64,000 bases of DNA from Protonemura montana. Taxonomy: Eukaryota > Arthropoda > Insecta > Plecoptera > Nemouridae. Numbering within the stretch: position 1 is the first letter of the stretch; each line of letters begins with the position of its first letter. Position numbers and translations under genes: made by a program. The notes under the pieces are model-generated. The model was not told where the DNA came from and did not search any database. It was given only the letters and a program-made list of their open reading frames with translations. The stretch is taken from NCBI GenBank assembly GCA_947568835.1, contig OX387604.1, positions 25,201,076-25,265,075 of the forward strand, given 5' to 3'. Shown here piece by piece: positions 2 to 61,404 of the stretch.

Positions 2-1814
2 AACTTGTTTGATTTCGAAGAAGAAACCAATAGAAAATCCATTGCTCCTTCTTTACGTAGAAGAAATAGTCATCGTTCTTCCATGAAGCAGATTAGTTCC
101 ACTGAAGTAAATATTCTTCGTAATACATCGGGGGGATACATAAATCCTGCACTTGATACAGACATAGATGTGATTCCTGACTTGGATTACGTAGCCGCTA
201 TGAGTTGCCTACAGAAGCTAATGGAATGTTCTCGCCAGAGGGATGCAAAGAAAATAGATATGGCCCTCTTAAGCCAATGCCGTCGGTGGGATTCGGGTGA
301 AACAGAAGAAAAAGACGTCATATTTGAGAGCAAGGACATAAGCGGTGAAGGTTTGAGCGAACCCGAAAACCGTTGGGAAAAGCACGACTACGTAAACGTC
401 GGATTTCGTTCGTCAGAGACAGAGACTGAGTCGGGGAGCGATGGATACGACGGTGGGAACAGTGGCTCTGAAAGTGAGGGAGCTTCGTTTCATACAGCAG
501 TCTGCACTTCATCTATGAATGCTACTCGGCTGTCGATCAGTGTCGACGATGCCTGGCTAGGGCACGTTGATGCCACCGCAGTTGAATTCATGCGACTTGT
601 TTTCCTGTGTGTGGAGCCGCAAAGAAGAAACCATCTGAAACAATTGTTGCTAGCATTGAAAGTCGTGTCACCGTCAACCAAGAGTCTGGCCAAGGTGAGT
701 CATCGATCACTTACTTTTGCAACCAAGAGACTGATGGGCTAGGCTAGATGGAACATTTCTAAAAAAAATATGCTGCCCTGTTTTACTTTCTCAATTTCCC
801 CTGAAAAATGTCTCTTATTTTGGTGTTGAGTGTAACTGTTTTGCTCTGCTTGAACTGACTTGCGGTTCTAAAAAGGACCTAAGAAGTCTACGTTTTGTCA
901 GCGTTGGCACCGACATCCTCAGGAATGTCAGAGCAGCAGGTGTTCGCCGCTTTTTATAACAGAAGTTTCCTTCCTGGTGCTCGTTGCCAACCACTTTGCC
1001 AATCCTTCTCTAATTTTGTTAGGATCATAATTTTCCCCAAATATTTATGAGATTTTTCTCAATTTGCAGATTGTTGATGCCCTGGCTTTGACTTTGACTA
1101 CTAACTCATTAGGGGATGTCGATGAAGATCTCATGAAACGTCTTCTCAACTTCATGGTTGCCCACCAGAGTGTTTTATTTGATATACCACAAGGATTACT
1201 AGAGCAGATCGAGCACAGTGCAAACTTCTTGAAAAGGCAGCAAGCGCCAAGTACCATTTCTTTACCGTTCGTGCCATCCATACAAACCCTCCAGAGTAAA
1301 GGCAGCAAGAATGCTCCACAAAGCAATGCAAGCTTAGTCACTGGAATTCGAGCACGGCTACCAACCACTGAGCTTGGTGCAATTTCTGCTCAACGTCAAT
1401 TTGTTAAAGCAAGTACCATCTCACTCCCAGCAAGACTTTCTCGAAACAACAGCGAGGGACAGGTTGCCTATTGTACGCAAGTTTCAACGGAAGAATTTGA
1501 GCAACAAAAGTTGACAGTCTCGCAGATGGCTATAGCAGAATTACTGGAGCAGCTTCTGAGCGATTGCAAGATGAGTGTAAAAGAAAAGAAGAAACGGCTT
1601 AAAACAGTGAGTTGCTTTATTTACTGTTAAATTTATAACTTCTTAATATAGAAATGTCACTGCGTTCTGAGACATTATGTGTTTCTTAATTCTTTTCTAG
1701 TTCAAAGACTCGTATCCCCACATCTACTATCGCCGCTTCCCGATAGCAGAAAGAACCGAGAAGAAAAGATTGCTTCAGCCTGTCTTTACAAAATTCAAAA
1801 GCATGCGCATCTAG
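2..1814 (+). CDS. DEPDC1-like protein, 3' part (N-terminus outside window)
   Basis: Three exons are visible: 2-694, 1070-1606 and 1701-1814 (TAG stop). All join in phase 0, with donors GTGAGT and GTGAGT and acceptors TTTGCAG and TTCTAG. They give 447 residues, open at the left edge. The middle part (LLNFMVAHQSVLFDIPQGLL) resembles the RhoGAP-like region of DEPDC1A/B, and the end (ELLEQLL, then KEKKKRLKTF and SYPHIYYRRFP) matches the conserved C-terminal block of that family. The DEP domain itself should lie upstream and is not seen. Family knowledge: DEPDC1 proteins take part in cell-cycle and Rho signalling, and their GAP-like domain is thought to be inactive. The first visible stretch is acidic and Ser-rich and is probably a linker. 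The family is fairly sure; A versus B orthology is not resolved, and arthropods may have a single gene. Confidence 0.78.
830..930 (-). repeat. Decayed copy of the ribozyme-bearing foldback element
   Basis: This stretch lies in intron 1 of the DEPDC1-like gene. It matches the element at 58611-58804 over one arm (GGTTCTAAAAAGGACCTA) and over the 42-base ribozyme-like core, which here covers 885-926 on the minus strand. The second arm is missing and the core is degraded, so it is probably inactive. Confidence 0.65.
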
Positions 1815-27925: not shown

Positions 27926-29445
27926 CTAAACGAATATCTCGAGGTCTGAAGTGTGTATTCCGGAGTCATACGAGTCATGGCACTCGTGGCTTGGTGTTGG
28001 TGTTCTTGCTCCTTGAGATCGATTGCGAGTCGGAGGATATGAGACTCTTTTCCGAACAAAACTATCTGAGCTCTGAAACATTGAAACAACCAGGTCACCC
28101 ACGGCACATCAACACCCAGCATAGACGACAACTACATTATGTATTTGAAAAAACCTTTCAAACTGAATTTGGAATGCTAAGTGATGAACAACTGAATTTC
28201 CCAATGTTTCTTAACATGTACCTGTTACTTTATCGAGGGTAAAAGCAGTCCTTGATAAAGTAACAGGTAAAAGTTACGAAACGTTGAAAATTTAGTTGTT
28301 CTTCGCTTAGCGTTCAAACCCCAGTTTAAATAGTTTTGTCAAAACTAGTGCTAAGGTTAGATTAAGTAGACATGAATCTAAAATCTAACACAATGTATTT
28401 TGTTGAGTGGACAAAAGAGGAATTGATGAACCTGTTATACCTTTTGGTTTTACTAGTCACGTTGTGGACTAAAATTATTTAATTTGACATGCCATGCAAC
28501 TTCAAGATTTAAGGTCGAAAAACTCTTAAAACAGAGCAGTGCCATGAAGCACAAAAAAAAACACTGCAGAAAATTGTGAATCTGAACAAGGTGATAAGAT
28601 TAAACAAATTACTCAATTATTAAATTTTTTATGTTACATAGATTCATTCTATTTTTAAGAGAAGCACAAGTATTCATAATTAACTACAGGTAAGAAATCG
28701 TAAAGAGAGATTAAAATTGAGATTTTCGAGCCAGATATTGGAGACCACCTCTGTGTGGGCCGAGTGGTTACCTTTCCAAAACTAAATCATGGAAAACATT
28801 TCCATTATATTATACAAACTGGAATAATAAAGTATACTAACGGTAGGCCGTTTCATCCCAGAACCATCTCTTGTCGGCGTTGACAAAGTCGAGCAAGGAG
28901 ATGGTATTTCACTTGAGGTGTCCGAAGAGCAATATGACACTTGTTCTCTAAAGTTCAATATATCTTCTTGCAGCGCGAATAATTGCTGAAACAGGTCTGT
29001 ATCTTGAGCCATCAATCCGATCTACAACAAAAGAAAGAAAGCATACCAACAGCAATAACTAGGGCAATGGTTACGGTCAGTCATAGAAGACTAATTATTA
29101 TTATTATTATTATACATAATTATAAATAGTCACGGCGCTGTAAGTCTTTCTTCCCATTCGAACAAAGATTCAATTATACGATTGCAATTAATGATATTCA
29201 CATACAATTTCGTGTTTGAGATGATGGAGCTTCGTTGTGAGTGATGTAAACTGACTACAGGAATGAAACTGATGAGGAGAATGTGACGCAAGTGGCACCC
29301 CATCGTGCCTTGAGGGATTTTCGACAATCCAGGTATCTTTTCGTATCTCGTTGCGCAATTTCCAGGCAGTGAAGAAGTGCCTCGATAGCGCGAAATGATG
29401 GGCAGGAAATTGCACCAACTGGTCATTGTAGCACATTGACGCCAT
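27926..29445 (-). CDS. FAM89/LURAP1-family leucine-rich adaptor
   Basis: Three minus-strand exons: 29445-29206 (80 codons from MASMCYNDQLVQ), 29021-28842 (60 codons) and 28072-27926 (48 codons and TAG). All join in phase 0, with donors GTATGT and GTTAGT and acceptors TTGTAG and TTTCAG. The product is 188 residues, close to human FAM89B. Across the first junction the sequence reads HLKHEI|IGLMAQ then DLFQQLFALQEDI. This lines up with the family core, which in FAM89B reads LLRKEMVGL followed by SLLCQLYSLYESI. The last exon is Ser- and Arg-rich and ends SYDSGIHTSDLEIFV, a possible PDZ ligand. Family knowledge: LRAP25/LURAP1 proteins link MRCK and LIM kinases to actin control. Whether this is closer to FAM89 or LURAP1 is open. 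Confidence 0.72.
28148..28382 (-). mobile_element. Foldback element with about 90-bp inverted arms
   Basis: The left arm (about 28148-28238, ending TACCTGTTACTTTATCGAGG) and the right arm (about 28250-28340, starting CCTTGATAAAGTAACAGGT) are imperfect reverse complements around a loop of about 11 bases. The outer part, with TTAGCACTAG and CATGTCTACTT-like blocks (minus strand), is shared with copies near 45.5 and 54.5 kb. It lies in the second intron of the FAM89/LURAP1-like gene and codes for nothing. Confidence 0.7.
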
Positions 29446-33012: not shown

Positions 33013-33457
33013 ACCGAACGGTTTGGTGTGTTGGAAACACCGGTTCTCGCGAGATCACCGAAGTTAAGCAACACCGCGCTGAGTCAGGTGTTGGATGGGG
33101 TGACCATGATACACATTCCTATAGTTCTGTTCGGGAGAGAGGTTGGAGGGATGAAAGCTAGTACAGCAACTTCACTCGCCTTGCTTGTCAACCCCTCGAC
33201 AGCATGGATTTGTGGAGGAATCCTGCTGTTTGAGTTGTACCGTCCTTCGGAAGGGACTTTAAGCCGGTGGTCCCCTAAGTGCTCTTCGTCAGGAGTTGGC
33301 TACGTGCCGGCACCGGGTTTCCCCTCCTCCGATCTAGGCTAGGTTAAATTCATCATCGTCCTCATCATCGTCGACTGATTCACCGACGCCATTAGACCAG
33401 CGCCGCAGGGCTAGATATCAAAACAGTGCGTCTTTAAACACCACAAATCAATCAATC
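33013..33457 (+). mobile_element. SINE with 5S rRNA-like head, complete copy
   Basis: The head (AACACCGGTTCTC, GATCACCGAAGTTAAGCA, TTGGATGGGGTGACC) follows the order and wording of 5S rRNA with its internal RNA polymerase III promoter. The body is unrelated, and the 3' end has ATC repeats and an AATCAATCAATC tail. It is flanked by a 10-bp direct repeat, AAACGTCAAT, at 33003-33012 and 33458-33467, the expected target-site duplication. Known group: SINE3-type elements, mobilised by a partner LINE. A 104-codon frame inside it is accidental. Confidence 0.85.
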
Positions 33458-43710: not shown

Positions 43711-46456
43711 TTAAAACTTCTTGAAATGGGCTACTATTATTTCGTACCGTACTTTTACAGATTGATCATCGTTAATCACATTATTATTTTGATCCATTAT
43801 CTGGTTGCTTATATCAACTAAATTCAGATTAAGGGTCTCTGTGACACAATCGTTCATAAATGCATCTTTTAGATCATTAGGAATCTGATCCAAAAACGGA
43901 TTGACCGCCTTCAGGGCTTCTGAAAATAAAGCAAAAAGATCATTAGGAAAAATGATTAGAAAATTTAGGAAATTACAGAAGAGTGCTCAATTCTCTTTCA
44001 GAAAACTAGACACAATAGATTGTTACAAAACCATTTTCCCAGAGTTCTGTAAGTGTGACGTAGGGATGGGGCATAATGTTTTATACGCCAAAAAGCAGTT
44101 CACACACTAACTACATATTTGGTAAATAATTCAAGCTAGTGTACAGTTTGGAACTAATATCAAGAACAAGAAGCATCGCTCCTTCACTCGAACGTTTCTT
44201 TAAATACGAATTGAAGGGAAATACAAATGAGTCCCCTATCCAATGAAAGTCACTCTCTTGCGATGGAATTGTTACGTTCCTCTACTGCCTTTTCCTTTAC
44301 TACCTTTTATTGCCTTTTTCTTTACTGCCTTCTCCTTTGCTGTCTTTTCCTTTACAGACTCCGAGGGGATAAGTCCTGAGACTGGGAAAGTTTCCAAACG
44401 AACTGAGCTGTTAAGTTCAAAATAGGCATCACAACCCCAAGGTTTTCTCATACATTTAGGTTTTATTACCAACTGCCAGTATTTACTACCAGTATCTACT
44501 TCTAGCATTGCCATATAGGCAAGAAGTATAATTCTTTTATGAAGATTATATATTTAGTGCTAATCATCCTCGCAACTCAGAAATTGTTCTACTTCATTAG
44601 TGGCTAAATACGTTTTTAAATGCATTTCAAGTGGAATAGAAGAGATCCAGCGGGATTTCCAAGTGTGATATCAGCAATTAAACCAAAATGTATTAGAAAA
44701 CTATTGTTTCCGATGTGATTTTGACAATGACTGCTCGGCTCGTTCATAAAAAATCGGAGTCACGTAACACATCCCCTCGTAGGTAGTACAGGAATAGACA
44801 GTAAAGGAATAGGCAAGACAGGAAAGAATTTAGATGAGTAGGCAGTGCAAGAAAATTAAGGGTAAAAAGGGTAGCAGGTAAAGTAGGCAGTTCAGGAATA
44901 GGCAGTATAGGAACGAGGCGATGAAATGAGACCATGCGAGCGTAGAAATGGCCAGGCAGGTATCGTACTTCTCAGGTGCCCCGTAGTGCCGAATGGAAAA
45001 CTTCGTTTCTCAGTGCGGCAACTGATCACTTGGAAGCCGCAGTTGTGCACAAGGTCATCGAACTCCTTACGAGGGTCACTGGAATGCTGGTAAGGAGACA
45101 CGAATTGCGATACATCCTGCGAAAATAAAAACACATCACATCAATTAGTCAAGCTAAATAGATTTTCCAGAGCCTTTACATTTTTGTTTCTAGAATTCTA
45201 TTCTGTTCAGAACTGTCGATAGGAATTTGGTGTCATGTATCTTTCGAAACTAAATTTAGTCAAATTTTCAAATATTCCATGTTTTTTTAGGTACACAAAA
45301 GTCAAAGCCGACCTCTCTGCCATAAGTAACTCTATTACGTAAGTAATGACATAAAGTCAAAGCCCTCTGGATTCATTTCTGCCTTTTCGGCCTTTTGGCC
45401 TCGTTTATGTTGATTTTTTCAATGCTCTTAAATTATCTTTAGAGGACTGTGAAAAGCAGAAATTTAAAAAATAACACACTTGTATGATGGTTTTTAGACT
45501 CATGTCTACTTATTTATCCTTAGCACAAGTTTTTTGAAAAACTATTTGAACTGGGTTTTGAATGCTAAGTAAAGGGCCTTTACTTAGCATTCAAAACCCA
45601 GTTCAAATAGTTTTTCTAAAAACACACTTGTATTTCTGTCGTATTGAAATTTTAAACAATTTCACAGTCTGGTTTAATTATTTCCTGGGAAATTGCAATA
45701 AAGGTTACATTTTTCTAGAGTAGTTGAGTGTTATCATTATTACTCCGCGGTTTCAGTTTTTTACATGTTAATATATAGACAAAAATGAGCAATTTGTTTA
45801 ATTGTAGGTTTTTTTTTAGATTATGATCAGATTACCTTCATATATTCTTGCCACTGGCTTTTCTTAGCCAATCGTTCGTAGAGAGAGAACACCGGACAAT
45901 TTGCCAGCAGCATAACTAGCGCTTCACCCCCAGGTTTCAAGAGGCTATACATATTTTCCATTGCCAGTCTGTAAAAAGATAACCAATTTAGACAAATCTA
46001 AAAAACTTAAAAACTTATAAGTAAAAAATATATCAATGTTTTAACTTACTTTTGTTCAGAAACCCAGTGAAGACAGTAGAAGGAAAACAATTTGTCAAAC
46101 ATGCCATGAAAGATGTGGAGATCTTTGTCATCGTTTCCAATAACATTACTGAGTTTAGAAGTATCTAGCCTCTGAGTAGCAATATCCAATTGGGTAAACG
46201 ACAATTTTGGATCACGAAAAGTTCGAGTAGCATGGTTGACCATTTCGATTGACAAGTCACATCCCACAAGTTTTCGGATATTTTTTGGCAGCTTCGGAAG
46301 TAAAATGTTGGAAGTGACATCTCCTGCGCCGCATCCTATGTCAAGAATCAGGTCTCCTGCATTCCAATTGATTGTATCGATACAATCAGTCAGCACGTCA
46401 CATGCGTCTCTTTTCTGCATGCCGTTTGCCTTAGTGTAACTATCCGCATTGTTCAT
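43711..46456 (-). CDS. Juvenile hormone acid / farnesoic acid methyltransferase (JHAMT-like)
   Basis: Four minus-strand exons: 46456-46050, 45968-45836, 45116-44969 and 43919-43711 (TAA). Phases are 2, 0 and 1, and all splice sites are GT-AG. The product is 298 residues, the normal family size. The N-terminus (MNNADSYTKANGMQKRDA) is typical, and residues about 36-50 hold the SAM-binding motif LILDIGCGAGDVTSN. HWVSEQK, then NMYSLLKPGGEALVMLL, the DVSQFVSPYQHSSDP block and a C-terminal LKAVNPFLDQIP also fit. Family knowledge: the enzyme moves a methyl group from S-adenosylmethionine to farnesoic acid or JH acid in the cytosol, the last or near-last step to methyl farnesoate or juvenile hormone. 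The start lies four bases after a good acceptor (TTTTTATCAG), so the 5' UTR is split. Other class I methyltransferases are less likely, because the match extends beyond the SAM motif. Confidence 0.88.
45480..45616. mobile_element. Foldback element with a perfect 40-bp palindrome
   Basis: The arms 45536-45575 and 45577-45616 are exact reverse complements around a single G. The left flank (GACTCATGTCTACTT and TTAGCACAAG) is shared with copies at about 28.3 and 54.5 kb. It lies in intron 2 of the JHAMT-like gene. Confidence 0.8.
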
Positions 46457-52746: not shown

Positions 52747-53151
52747 ACCGAACGGTTTGGCGTGTTGGAAACACCGGTTCTCATGAGATCACCGAAGTTA
52801 AGCAGCACTTCGATGGGTTAGGTATTGGATGGGTGACCATCATACACATGACCAGTTCTGTTCGGGAGAGAGGTTGGAGGTATGAGTCTTGCTTATCAAC
52901 CTCTCGACAGCATGGATTTGTGGAGAAATCCTGCTGTTCGAGTTGTACAGTCCTGCAGAAGGGACATTAAGCCGGTGGTCCCCTTGGTCTTCGACAGGAG
53001 TAGGCTATGTGCCGGCACCGGGTTTCCCCTCCTCCCTACTATGCTAGGTTCATCATCATCCTCATCATCATCCACTCATTCATCGACGCCATTAGACTAG
53101 TGCCGCAGGGCCAGTCGTCAAGTGCGTCGTTAAACACTACAAATCAATCAA
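52747..53151 (+). mobile_element. SINE with 5S rRNA-like head, second copy
   Basis: Same order as the copy at 33013-33457: head with GATCACCGAAGTTAAGCAG and TTGGATGGGTGACC, then the GAGAGAGGTTGGAGG body, a CATCATC run and an AAATCAATCAA tail. It is about 40 bp shorter because of an internal deletion. The target-site repeats are not clear. Confidence 0.8.
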
Positions 53152-53495: not shown

Positions 53496-54504
53496 TTGCG
53501 TCACTGTTACGTCAATGTCTCTGCAGTCCTACATAGTACTGGTATAGCTCTCTCTCCTTGCTGCTCTCTGCTCTCTGTTGGTTACCCAGCCCCAGGCTAG
53601 CTTTACTATCTGGATTATTGATGTTTCTCTTCCTTCTGCTTTTCGTCTTCCTTGTCCTCCTCCTTTTGTTTGTTGTTTCATCTTGGTTCTTCTCTAGCTT
53701 GATATTCTCTTTACGCCACAACATAGAAATCAGGATGCACAGCTGTAGTCTCTGTATACCCTAAAGTCGCTGGCTACGAGTCCCCGCATTTCTTCACTCT
53801 TCTCTACCCAACTTTCTATTTGTTCTAAGACGACAATGACGCGGCAGCCATTTTTGATATTTATACAGAATATTCTTTGCTGCAAGTTTTTGATAAAAAC
53901 GACGTCGACGCTTGGAGATCTAATGTAAAGTTTTGAGAAAGAAACTTGGTGCTTATTTGCTAGCAAAGTTTATCGCTAATGTGGAGCTACGGCCGTTACC
54001 GTAATTAAACGGCAATGATTTTTTTATTATTTAATATTATTTAAAATCTTAATAAAATGCATTATTTTAAATATATTTTGATATGCGTCCCTCATATTTT
54101 GTGTTGCATAGCATTACCTACTTCGAGAAAATCCAATTAAATTAACCGAGTTTTTCCTATATGGAAAAGAAGGAAATAATCTCATGAGAAAGTTTCGTGA
54201 AAGATTGTAAATAAAGTGCCATTCGTGATATCCATATCTAAACCGTTTTTAATATTATCCGTCGAGAAAGAGGTGGCACTTTCAGTGAGGACACCGGATA
54301 CACCGGATACTCCGGAAATATCCGCAGCATCAGGGATCTTTAGATCCCTGAAGTTTATTGATCAATACCTCCAAAGATTACGTGAATAACTGCGGAACTT
54401 AATTGGGAACGCACCAAGCAAGCAAATGCGAAACAGACGTATGCGTATAGAAGTGGAAAATCTCCAACAAAGAAAGAATGTATTTTAAAACGACAAAGAC
54501 ATTA

Positions 54505-54612
54505 TGATTGTTTTTAGACTCATGTCTACTTGATTAAGCCTAAGCACTAGTTTTAACAAAAACTATTTGAAATGGGTTTTGAATGCTAAGTAAAGGACAA
54601 CTAAATGTCCCA
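54505..54612 (+). mobile_element. Single-arm copy of the foldback family
   Basis: GACTCATGTCTACTT, CCTAAGCACTAG, AAAACTATTTGAAATGGG and TTTTGAATGCTAAGTAAAGG match one arm of the elements at 28.3 and 45.5 kb. The other arm is absent. Confidence 0.65.
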
Positions 54613-56996: not shown

Positions 56997-57599
56997 ACCC
57001 GAGCAAATGTGCACCAGCTCAAGCTTGAACCCGAGCAAATGTGCACCAGCTCAAGCTTGAACCCGAGCAAATGTGCACCAGCTCAAGCTTGAACCCGAGC
57101 AAATGTGCACCAGCTCAAGCTTGAACCCGAGCAAATGTGCACCAGCTCAAGCTTGAACCCGAGCAAATGTGCACCAGCTCAAGCTTGAACCCGAGCAAAT
57201 GTACACCAGCTCAAGCTTGAACCCGAGCAAATGTACACCAGCTCAAGCTTGAACCCGAGCAAATGTGCACCAGCTCAAGCTTGAACCCGAGCAAATGTAC
57301 ACCAGCTCAAGCTTGAACCCGAGCAAATGTACACCAGCTCAAGCTTGAACCCGAGCAAATGTGCACCAGCTCAAGCTTGAACCCGAGCAAATGTGCACCA
57401 GCTCAAGCTTGAACCCGAGCAAATGTGCACCAGCTCAAGCTTGAACCCGAGCAAATGTGCACCAGCTCAAGCTTGAACCCGAGCAAATGTGCACCAGCTC
57501 AAGCTTGAACCCGAGCAAATGTGTACCAGCTCAAGCTTGAACCCGAGCAAATGTGCACCAGCTCAAGCTTGAACCCGAGCAAATGTGCACCAGCTCAAG
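56997..57599. repeat. 32-bp satellite array, 19 units
   Basis: Units starting GAGCAAATGTGCACCAGCTC occur every 32 bp from 57001 to 57577 with almost no divergence. Each unit contains the palindrome TCAAGCTTGA. The only differences I see are GTACAC for GTGCAC in units 7, 8, 10 and 11 and GTGTAC in unit 17. Open frames through it are artefacts. Confidence 0.95.
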
Positions 57600-58610
57600 G
57601 TGTGGTTTGTTTAACACCCGCCCGTGGTTATTCGCTTGTCAATATTTTTAATTTATGCTTAAAAATAACGAATCACAAATACCGTCCGAATAAACAGTTT
57701 TTTTCTAATATTTAATTTGGAACGATTATCTGTCGCATTCAAACTGGTTCTGAGAATTCAGACACTAGACTAATGTGCATCTTATTGGGCTACAAATTGG
57801 AAAATAAAGTAAATAAAACCAAACGAAATTACACAAACTTCTAATTTTTTATTGAGATTTGGCAGATGGGTTCCTTTTTTTTTTAAATAGAAAAAATAAA
57901 GTTAAATTCACCGATGAAATTATGGCCGCGCTGTATACCATGTAACTCACCAAATATGTCATCAATCGTGGAAGAAAATAAAATACAAATACAAAAACAA
58001 ATACAAATCGTTTATGGCACTGCGTTGTTCTGAATGCATACAGCAAACCTTGCAAACCTTGTTGTCTGAATATGATGAAACTCACGTAGATAATTTCTAG
58101 ATAAAGAAATCAGAAAGAAAACTCGCTAACGCGTGGAAATAAGATACAGCTGTGCGGTTGTCTAATAATGTATTGCAATATTGAAGGAAAAGTGCAGCAC
58201 TGAGCTTCAGAATTTAAGAGACGTTGGTTGGGTTAAATATGGAGACAAAGTCCCAATTAGAAAGTTATTGAAAATATGTATCATTTAATGTGGATTATGA
58301 TAAATAATGTCATGCTATTCCATATATGTTTTGTTTACAAAGTAAGAAGTCATTCGTCAATTGGGTTTAATTGTACCCATCTTCTTGAGATTAGCAAGCA
58401 ATTAAACATAACGCAATAAGCTAAATAACTCACACCACAAATCGTTTACCATAAAAGAAAAAAAAATTGAATTGCTAAGCTTGTTTTTTTAATTTTTAAT
58501 CACTTTATCGTTACCAATCTGTAAAACGACCATTAATCAGAAACTTAATTTACAATTAAAATTACGTAAAATCAGTAGATACAGATCCTTTACCTGTCAA
58601 ATAATCTCAT
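57600..58610. other. AT-rich spacer, nothing recognised
   Basis: Between the satellite and the ribozyme-bearing element. No coding frame or clear repeat. Confidence 0.5.
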
Positions 58611-58804
58611 ATTTGTTGTGGTAACGGACTTGCTCTGGTGGGATTGACTTGTGGTCCTAAAAAGGACCTAAAAAGTCGACGTTTCGTCGGCGATGGCGCC
58701 GACATCTTCAGGACTGAAGATCCTCTGGTCCTTCTGGTCCTTCTGGTCCTTTTTAGGACCACAAGTCAATCCCAACAGAGCAAGTCCGTTACTTACCACA
58801 ACAT
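58611..58804. mobile_element. Foldback element carrying a ribozyme-like core
   Basis: The arms at about 58611-58668 and 58745-58804 are nearly exact reverse complements (one mismatch in 48 bp, then a 4-base indel). The 76-base loop holds the hammerhead-like motif and three direct CTTCTGGTC-type repeats. Hammerhead ribozymes are known in Penelope-like and related non-autonomous retroelements, so that origin is inferred. It codes for no protein. Confidence 0.65.
58674..58715 (-). ncRNA. Hammerhead-ribozyme-like motif (minimal, stem I open)
   Basis: On the minus strand the order is AGTC, CTGAAGA, a 7-bp stem GTCGGCG/CGCCGAC closed by CCAT, GAAAC, GTC, GACT. This gives stem I (AGTC/GACT), the CUGANGA core, stem II, the GAAA core and a GTC cleavage triplet. 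Stem III is only the palindrome ACGT, as in the minimal hammerheads of Penelope-like elements that work as dimers. One extra T separates the core from stem II; an extra base at this place is known from a viroid hammerhead. Activity is untested. Confidence 0.5.
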
Positions 58805-61404
58805 TCACCCACGGCTCTGAACCACTTCACCAAACCAATCTCATATTTGCCAAAATTGTGCACCCCTGTGCGTTTAAGCATTTAGCATTTTAGGCGCAGG
58901 TGAAGTGATTGCACCACAACTAATTGTAAAAGAGGAGAACATTAGCGACACTTGCCTAGAAATGGGTTACCTGAGCCCCAGCTGTTGCTATTGGATAGCA
59001 TACTACGACATATTTGTCTAGAGAAACCCATCCCTAAATCTGTTCTATGAGACTATTAGACTATTAGACTATTATGCGTGTATCGTAGCTTCCATAACAA
59101 TGTTTCATGGCGCAAGCAAGCTCTTGTGTAGTGAACATATGCGGCCGTTATTTCAAACAACGATCCTGCTAGAAATAGTTAGCTTTATAATCAATGTTTG
59201 GCAAGATTTAAGAGGGTAGTTTCTGCGCAGATTAGTGAAATAATCCTTCGTGGATAGAAGGAACAATTTAATTGTTTATTAATTGCTGGTTAAGTAAGAC
59301 CATGGACAGCTGGACTTGAATACGAAATATTTCAAATTATCAATCACTTAAGTAACTAAAAGGAGAAGGCTATTTTTTATTTTTTTACTTTAGTTCAAAA
59401 TAATGTTACCATGTTAATGTATTCAGGATGTCAGAATGTAGGATGTTTATGTTTTTTCTTGTTATTCGAAGGTCATACACCTGTAATCACATGAAGAAAT
59501 GTGTGCAGGTAAGACAATTAAAATGTACGCATATTTGTTGCCCCCCCCCCCCCCCCCCTCCCCACTCTTTATTCGTTTGGATAAAATAAACACTTTTGTA
59601 CGTGAGACTTTGGGAGCAATGAGTCGTGCTGGCGGGCAACAGAGTGTGGGAGTCTGGGGGAGGGGGAGGGTGATGGGCTTATTCCACAGAAGGGTGGGCA
59701 GGGTTTAATACCCTGCCCACTTATCTTATATCGAACGAACGCTCTGAGAATAGAAATACGAAAGTTGTAGGTGAGAAGATAAGGCTGCGAAACCGTTTCG
59801 TTATTAAAAGCCGACCTGTGGAAATGATACTTTAAAAAAAAAATGTATTTAAATGAAATCATATGTAATTACTTATACCACTTCCTGTTCCATCTCGAGA
59901 ATCATTCTTATATGAAGGGTGCACGCATGTTTCTGCTCCAATAAGAAGTGTCTTAACTCCTCAACCCTATAATAACATTCAGGCCGTGTGAAATGAGCCA
60001 GCTAATTTTTTTAATCTTTAAAATCAACCCATTGAAAACTAAAAAATAAGATAATTTTTACTGAACCTGAATCAAATTAACGGTACATTCACGTTTGATT
60101 AGGTCACCAATTCTTTCAGATGTCTGACACCATGTGACCAGTGCCACAGTGTTCGTCGTTAAAACAGTGTGTCGTGAAACACAACAGTTCTTTCAGAGAA
60201 TGTTAAAGAAATGATATGTTGGTCGTCCTATTCTAGAATTTCATATAAAATAGTTTGATTTTGTCTTTTTTTCAGAGTTACTATTAAGAGCTCGTGATTC
60301 GCGCTCTTCGCAAGGTAATTTCCTTTTCTAAACTTAACCTCTCTTTTGCTTTGCCCCGTTATTATTCATATAGCCTAAGCCTTCGCTCTTTCTCCCACCA
60401 CACATAATTTATTCTCCTCACATTTTGAAAATGGTTCTTTAGCAAAGAATGGCTTCCAAGTTTGATCGAATTGTAGACATTTTATCAGAACCTAAGTCAA
60501 CTCGATCCGTTCCTTGGCGAATCCTATAATACCAAAGAATCAGCATTCTTAGCACAAAGAAAACTTAGTCGAGTGCGTGTTCTAGAAAAGCCATATTTGC
60601 TACCGGAGATAATTTTCCAAACAGTCATTCATCACTGAAGCAGTTTTTGTTCAGTTGCTTCTAGTGTTTGCAGAGCAAGTGTACTGCATGACTTTTCAGT
60701 GCAAGGGAAGTGAACGACGGTTGTGAAGGTTGAAATGCAAGGGCACACCAATGGGAACGGGGGGTTCGGCAAAACCCGGAACACGCAAGTGTAGCTTTGC
60801 AACCAATCCAAATCGGGAAAGTCATTTGGAACACGCGCAAACTCGTCGACCAATCTTTCCTTTTCAACGAGAATTCATTTGAATTAATTTTCTTTGCGGG
60901 AAAAGCGAGTTTCCTCACTGAAAGCCTCGTAAGACTATATCGTTTGAAAGCGGGTTAGAACATTTTTTCGAGAATTTTTTTCGCTTTTTATAAACGGACT
61001 TTTTTTTATGGGAGGCATTCCTGTTTTATTTGTTTTATCTTTTGGAATTGGTTTGATCAGTGATGAGACTGAACATATCAAACTCTGAAGAAACGTCTTA
61101 AAAATATGTATTTTCTAGACACAAACACCATCTCAATTTCATGAAATTCATCATCACCTCCTTTCCCTCATAGTTTCACCAAAGAAAATGCGTATGGCAA
61201 ACAACAAAAAGAAATTTCATTTCATGCCATCGGCACGTTCTCAAGTACCTGTAAATAAGATTTACTTTTAGACATACTACCTTTGAGTAACGGATCTTGA
61301 CATGTAGTCAAAGATATAAATACTTTGATTATCATCCTTCCACCAATCATAAGCAGTATTTGATGACATAATCTTGTCATTTGATGCAACCAGTTGAATA
61401 AAAT
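58805..61404. other. Spacer with small repeats
   Basis: It contains a poly(C) run (about 59540-59559), a G-rich stretch with a perfect hairpin (GTGGGCAGGG / CCCTGCCCAC at 59694-59720) and a SINE-tail fragment at 60126. Minus-strand frames at 60632-60918 overlap each other and do not look coding. Confidence 0.5.
60126..60186 (+). mobile_element. SINE tail fragment
   Basis: GACACCATGTGACCAGTGCC and AAAACAGTGTGTCG match the 3' part of the SINE (GACGCCATTAGACCAGCGCC, AAAACAGTGCGTC). The head and body are absent. It could instead be the end of the partner LINE. Confidence 0.45.

Follow-up and report, generated by a model that had tools for sequence, protein, structure and literature searches.

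The stretch of DNA analysed here (the window) comprises 64,000 nucleotides of contig OX387604.1 of Protonemura montana and carries a hammerhead-like motif inside a 221-bp insertion at positions 58616-58836. This insertion is a short insertion footprint of a Penelope-like retrotransposon (PLE); the class of the motif, the inverted pseudo-long terminal repeats (pLTRs), the tail and the target-site duplication (TSD) were already known. A comparison of copies across the searched genome (258 Mb) suggests that the motif cuts its RNA in living cells before reverse transcription. The inner ends of the arms form two peaks, one at the likely transcription start and one at the first base past the predicted cut, and on our best reading hammerhead-cleaved PLE RNA would be reverse-transcribed in vivo. 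It is likely that PLE insertion proceeds by paired complementary DNAs (cDNAs) copied from an RNA that begins either at the transcription start or at the hammerhead cut. For a stronger statement we put the chances at about even, namely that hammerhead cleavage determines the 5' end of much of the RNA copied by the PLE reverse transcriptase (RT), that paired cDNAs from two internal starts, on opposite strands of the target, are joined head to head, that animal genomes record the action of PLE ribozymes in vivo at base resolution, and that the foldbacks are products of cleaved or monomeric RNA.

Anatomy of the insertion and of the hammerhead motif

The insertion is flanked by a 13-bp TSD, AATCTCATATTTG, whose identical copies lie at 58603-58615 on the left and 58837-58849 on the right, and it extends slightly beyond the interval of the original prediction (58611..58804). 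That prediction had described inverted arms of roughly 58 bp. The arms are real and 98% complementary, but repeat detection in the window gave 48 nt (58621-58668 and 58745-58792, 76 nt apart), and the full element is the whole insertion. The strand of the element folds at -124.1 kcal/mol (z -12.8).

Positions within the PLE unit are given as q coordinates of the half-unit at locus L052, numbered from the first base of the CAGTC that precedes the core (q1); the predicted cut falls at q39/q40. The arm without a tail (58616..58716, minus strand) is 96% identical to this half-unit over q1-107; it would run from the proximal start of reverse transcription back to the likely transcription start (q1 = 58716). 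The other arm (58745..58801, plus strand) is truncated at q49 and therefore lacks its own hammerhead. It is 99% identical to the half-unit over q49-140, including the AC-rich tail of 35 nt (58802..58836, plus strand), which is present on this arm only, as the comparison with L052 indicates. The arms are joined by a filler of 28 nt (58717..58744). Contrary to what had been supposed, the hammerhead is not placed in an unrelated foldback; the arms correspond to that part of the PLE unit which follows the ribozyme and takes in the beginning of the open reading frame (ORF), and they are arranged head to head. The suspected retroelement origin is supported.

The motif is a predicted minimal type I hammerhead at 58674..58715 on the minus strand, and all of its parts stand in the order first described. 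Stem I (AGTC/GACT, 58715-58712 with 58677-58674) is short, with 4 bp only. The core CTGAAGA (58711-58705) is followed by a single extra base T (58704), stem II (58703-58697/58692-58686) and GAAA (58685-58682), and the predicted cleavage site lies between 58678 and 58677, the latter being the first base after the cut. From the core to the cut (58711-58678) the motif reads CTGAAGA-T-[GTCGGCG CCAT CGCCGAC]-GAAACGTC. Stem III is absent except for the palindrome ACGU, in agreement with the minimal stem III of the original prediction. Stems I and II around the core, a NUH triplet and little or no stem III are the features of the minimal type I class, and its activity is predicted from the sequence.

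A chance hammerhead look-alike in an ordinary hairpin repeat, with no ribozyme function, is one alternative. The Rfam hammerhead models, with which the original prediction was to be checked, found no match at the gathering score in the window, and the 8 matches obtained for 58550-58900 at E<=10 did not include a hammerhead. This was expected because the Rfam models describe forms with stem III. In the best predicted fold of a 57-nt stretch, stem II was formed and stem I was not, and a looser pattern, CTGANGAN{4,34}GAAAC, matched once in the window with 1.31 matches expected. The fuller pattern, CTGANGAN{6,30}CGAAACG, also matched once, but with only 0.01 expected. In the genome, the pattern CTGANGAN{6,30}CGAAACGT had 1150 matches versus 61 for its reversed control. 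Together with the covariation of both stems, these counts make a chance look-alike very improbable.

A 33-base form with an 18-nt stem-loop was found in 22 of the 30 first-listed places, in two subfamilies, and later listed places hold additional subfamilies, alike in layout but different in stem II sequence. Both stems covary. Among 46 distinct motifs, 86% of the stem I and II cells are paired (80% in stem I and 89% in stem II), versus a mean of 66% and a maximum of 70% after shuffling, and pairing falls to 55% or less when the stems are slid by -3 to +2. At least five of the first six stem II pairs are kept in 40 of these motifs, and all six in 23. The covariation score was 0.749 in ten variants hand-picked from the 46 with broken-stem copies excluded, compared with 0.294 for shuffled and at most 0.258 for slid stems; the pairing count was repeated on all 46. 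The constancy of the core letters proves nothing because the search pattern required them, and it also fixed the one base between the core and stem II.

Joints and inner ends of the arms

For the window's family, 72 loci were read, 22 found by similarity to the window copy and 50 as stretches around exact arm-end places. Two scorable inverted arms are present in 52 of them, the second arm of L074 being doubtful; the other 20 have one scorable arm with a variably present tail, and a few of these have a second, broken arm. The tail stands on exactly one arm in 51 of the 52 two-armed copies (in the remaining one, L078, BLAST shows a tail) and on both arms in none. The TSD score is at least 9 in 44 of the 52, versus 2.3% of permuted flank pairs. 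Some copies, such as L050, L052 and L055, have the hammerhead in both arms. The arm with the tail appeared to be truncated more often than the other; this was not used, as the set had been chosen partly by similarity to the window copy.

The original prediction had suggested a small non-autonomous family. A self-contained foldback of this kind, copied whole with its joint in the manner of a miniature inverted-repeat transposable element (MITE) or a short interspersed nuclear element (SINE), should repeat its joints. Twenty fillers, all 12 nt or longer, were compared. That of the window copy is indeed common to L040, 271 kb away and with a different TSD (24-28 nt, local alignment score 21), and to none of the remaining 18. 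Pairwise comparison of all 20 gave just one further scoring pair, L093 and L117, with a weak low-complexity likeness (score 12). Moreover, each of the 52 two-armed copies has its own combination of inner ends and filler. Most copies therefore look independently made, and whole-unit copying as the general explanation is improbable; the window copy or its twin L040 was probably copied once as a unit, which suggests that a MITE-like or SINE-like event may happen occasionally. The inner-end classes of the two arms within one copy showed no significant correlation (Fisher P 0.12, from a hand-entered table).

The inner ends were scored in 78 arms of these loci, chosen by an exact anchor match far from the cut. 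Seventeen end at q-2..2, the likely transcription start, and three lie beyond it. The first peak fits a transcription start: in L119 and L099, AAATAAAA precedes q0 by about 31 nt, and another member of the family in the window, an older and longer copy (832-959, minus strand), has an apparent TATA box, TATAAAAAG, at a similar distance, both distances being counted by hand. The second peak is at the predicted cut. Eleven arms end exactly at q40, the first base past it, and 14 end at q41-46, while none ends at q34-39, the six bases before the cut, and five end somewhere in q20-39. Were the 58 internal ends spread evenly over q3-84, the binomial probability of 11 at one place would be 1.2e-10. 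Because two arms from a single copy are not independent observations, loci were counted as well, and 12 of the 50 stretches have an arm ending exactly at q40 (14 of 80 arms, with inexact anchors admitted). No ribozyme remnant was seen by eye 5' of q40 in the arms that end there; therefore, q40 is a true end and not the result of divergence. From the position of this peak, we infer its origin in the ribozyme.

The same PLE insertion could give inner ends near the cut if RT stopped at the folded hammerhead RNA, at stem I, with the RNA left uncleaved. In the window's family stem I is q40-43, so that such a stop predicts ends at q44, where one arm was found, whereas the peak is at q40. Cleavage was given the larger share for this reason, though not as a certainty. 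A second subfamily (the GTAAC subfamily) also fits a stop, as its mode, +4, directly precedes GGG, the three-base strand of stem I. We consider an RT stop unlikely.

This second subfamily was read in 97 arms, from the first 100 listed of 1740 anchor places. Twenty-seven arms begin at +1..+7 of the cut and five at -20..0, of which three were judged palindrome artefacts of the aligner. The step at the cut is there again, blurred. Three places in the window belong to this subfamily. Two are inverted pairs, at 28141-28383 and 45484-45623, and the second pair has what looks like a TSD, ACACACTTGTAT. The third, at 54504-54611, is a single arm, and its match stops exactly at +1.

The inverted arms might also come from snap-back self-priming of one cDNA, or from an antisense template. 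Such routes were proposed for the PLEs of Adineta vaga in PMC3846280, and in the window's family the palindrome GTCGAC spans the predicted cut. Snap-back at this palindrome predicts ends at q37 without filler, yet q37 falls in the empty interval before the cut, and where both arms of a copy end at the cut, 8-30 nt of filler lie between them. Furthermore, a simple snap-back copy should bear the tail twice, which none of the two-armed copies does. We regard this route as possible but doubtful.

Under the model of paired cDNAs, PLE RNA would start at a TATA-directed site directly 5' of the hammerhead, with the ORF beginning inside stem II. The PLE RT would have two internal start sites, some 96 and 129 nt into the ORF, and the tail would be the interval that separates them. 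The target would be cut on both strands, and one cDNA would be primed from the distal site, with the tail, and the other from the proximal site, without it. Each cDNA would extend toward the 5' end of the RNA, which would lie at the transcription start or, for a considerable fraction of copies, at the site of hammerhead self-cleavage. Once both ends were joined, the product would be a foldback of head-to-head arms with a TSD, a single tail and a joint that varies between copies. Priming on both strands and the subsequent joining are what we infer.

Several points weigh against cleavage or against the model as a whole. The mode of the second subfamily is at +4 (9 arms) and not at +1 (4 arms), which joint trimming or a polymerase stop at the three-base stem I would explain. 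A third subfamily, with 2 palindromes only, was too small for a comparison at the cut. The TSD is missing at L074 and L078, two of the 52 two-armed copies. As described below, the search for the source element left further points on this side.

The source element and other features of the window

Three traits of PLE insertions, inverted head-to-head units, a one-sided short tail and a variable TSD, are found in the window's family. In L052, the frame that begins with the ATG at q12 has no stop as far as the end of the tail, and the cut would fall 28 nt past the A of this ATG. Coding sequence resembling the C-terminus of an endonuclease (EN) lies at C1:16928690-16928803, about 400 nt upstream of a unit at 16929207-16929335 on the same strand. 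The arrangement is repeated at C1:21713177-21713064, with one internal stop, followed by a unit at 21712712-21712584. We take the C1 peptide to be a PLE endonuclease C-terminus from its general features; a Pfam search with it gave no match, and it had 134 genome matches at E<=1. Eight of the matches, on C5, C11, C12, C13 and C14, have equal scores and equal 487-aa frames, and each lies within about 1.1 Mb of a contig end; these may reflect recent duplication close to chromosome ends. At C1:6775140-6775834 (L026, L027), the peptide matches weakly (E 0.02) between the two hammerheads of a copy of the second subfamily, on the strand expected for its unit.

In L182, a relative of the peptide, a frame of 538 aa matches RVT_1 at E 1e-14. 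A separate RVT_1 search of the genome, in which 150 of 1781 candidates were scored, led to no classified element. The best matches of L182 among solved structures are bacterial and group II-like RTs, and telomerase RT matched at E 0.02. Pfam GIY-YIG had no match in L182, where a GIY-YIG-like motif was seen by eye only. L182 is also 5'-truncated, and its coding strand has no hammerhead matching the search pattern. A full-length PLE with the exact unit of the window was not recovered by a search with the N-terminal peptide in which 150 of 711 candidates were scored. The only frame longer than 202 aa among these (747 aa, on C12) was rejected as a minisatellite; at L180 (12-1145), this minisatellite forms a long open frame that leads into a PLE unit. 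Among the loci examined, RT and GIY-YIG did not occur together in one intact element joined to the unit. The Pfam GIY-YIG search of the genome gave one match, presumably a host nuclease of the SLX1 type.

Elsewhere in the window, 5S rRNA-like stretches at 33013-33136 and 52747-52867 score above the Rfam gathering cut-off, and the flank of L096 looks similar; a dispersed repeat derived from 5S is possible. A tandem array with a 32-bp unit occupies 57500-57599, with three 36-nt copies at 97% or more.

If the inner ends mark the cut, the use of the ribozyme in vivo could be scored from any sequenced PLE-bearing animal genome. The rule of one tail per copy is a constraint on any model of PLE insertion.

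Comparison with known systems

The primary papers on PLE hammerheads are reportedly those of Cervera and de la Pena (2014) and Lunse et al. (2017). Ends at the cut site in genomic PLE copies were not mentioned in the titles and abstract openings of the literature searched, which left most subscription papers outside.

The closest comparison is with the PLE Poseidon_Ac (PAc) of Anolis carolinensis, as described in the available part of PMC11167929. Its ORF starts at stem II and the cut lies 26 bp past the start codon, compared with 28 nt here. In both systems, the start region is AC-rich. As in the model proposed here, the tail of PAc is bounded by two internal starts of reverse transcription in the early ORF, and both target strands are cut and extended. 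Results for PAc also join the points against cleavage. According to the same part of the text, no PAc RNA reads begin or end at the cut site, the ribozyme needed added protein in order to cleave, and ribozyme-dead RNA was still inserted in vitro. Cleavage is dispensable in vitro for PAc, whereas in the window's family the cDNA ends pile up at the predicted cut. The copies here are also short and without an ORF, unlike PAc.

The accessible text of PMC3846280 gives head-to-head pLTRs, an optional one-sided tail, short TSDs and a pLTR with the first codons as traits of PLE insertions. Pen2 and related EN-positive PLEs of Adineta vaga resemble the window's family in their inverted pLTRs, an optional tail of 31 bp, a TSD of 9-10 bp and the first ORF codons in the pLTR. 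Unlike the copies here, the Adineta vaga copies described there contain RT/EN coding sequence, and the word 'hammerhead' was counted zero times in that text.

The motif itself resembles the minimal type I hammerheads of PLEs and Terminons, with a core without stem III or loop-loop contacts, as far as these are described in the available sections of PMC7761336 and PMC7229834. They number thousands per animal genome and are thought to act as dimers; PMC7761336 describes the lack of stem III in PLE hammerheads and their presumed cleavage in dimeric form. No difference between these motifs and the one in the window was established. Metazoan non-LTR (long terminal repeat) retrozymes (PMC7229834, available sections) share with the window's family a type I hammerhead in a short non-coding retroelement. 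Retrozymes are head-to-tail tandem repeats with hammerheads, and a retrozyme was rejected as an explanation, since the units of the 52 two-armed copies are inverted and not direct tandem repeats; the copies here stand head to head and carry TSDs.
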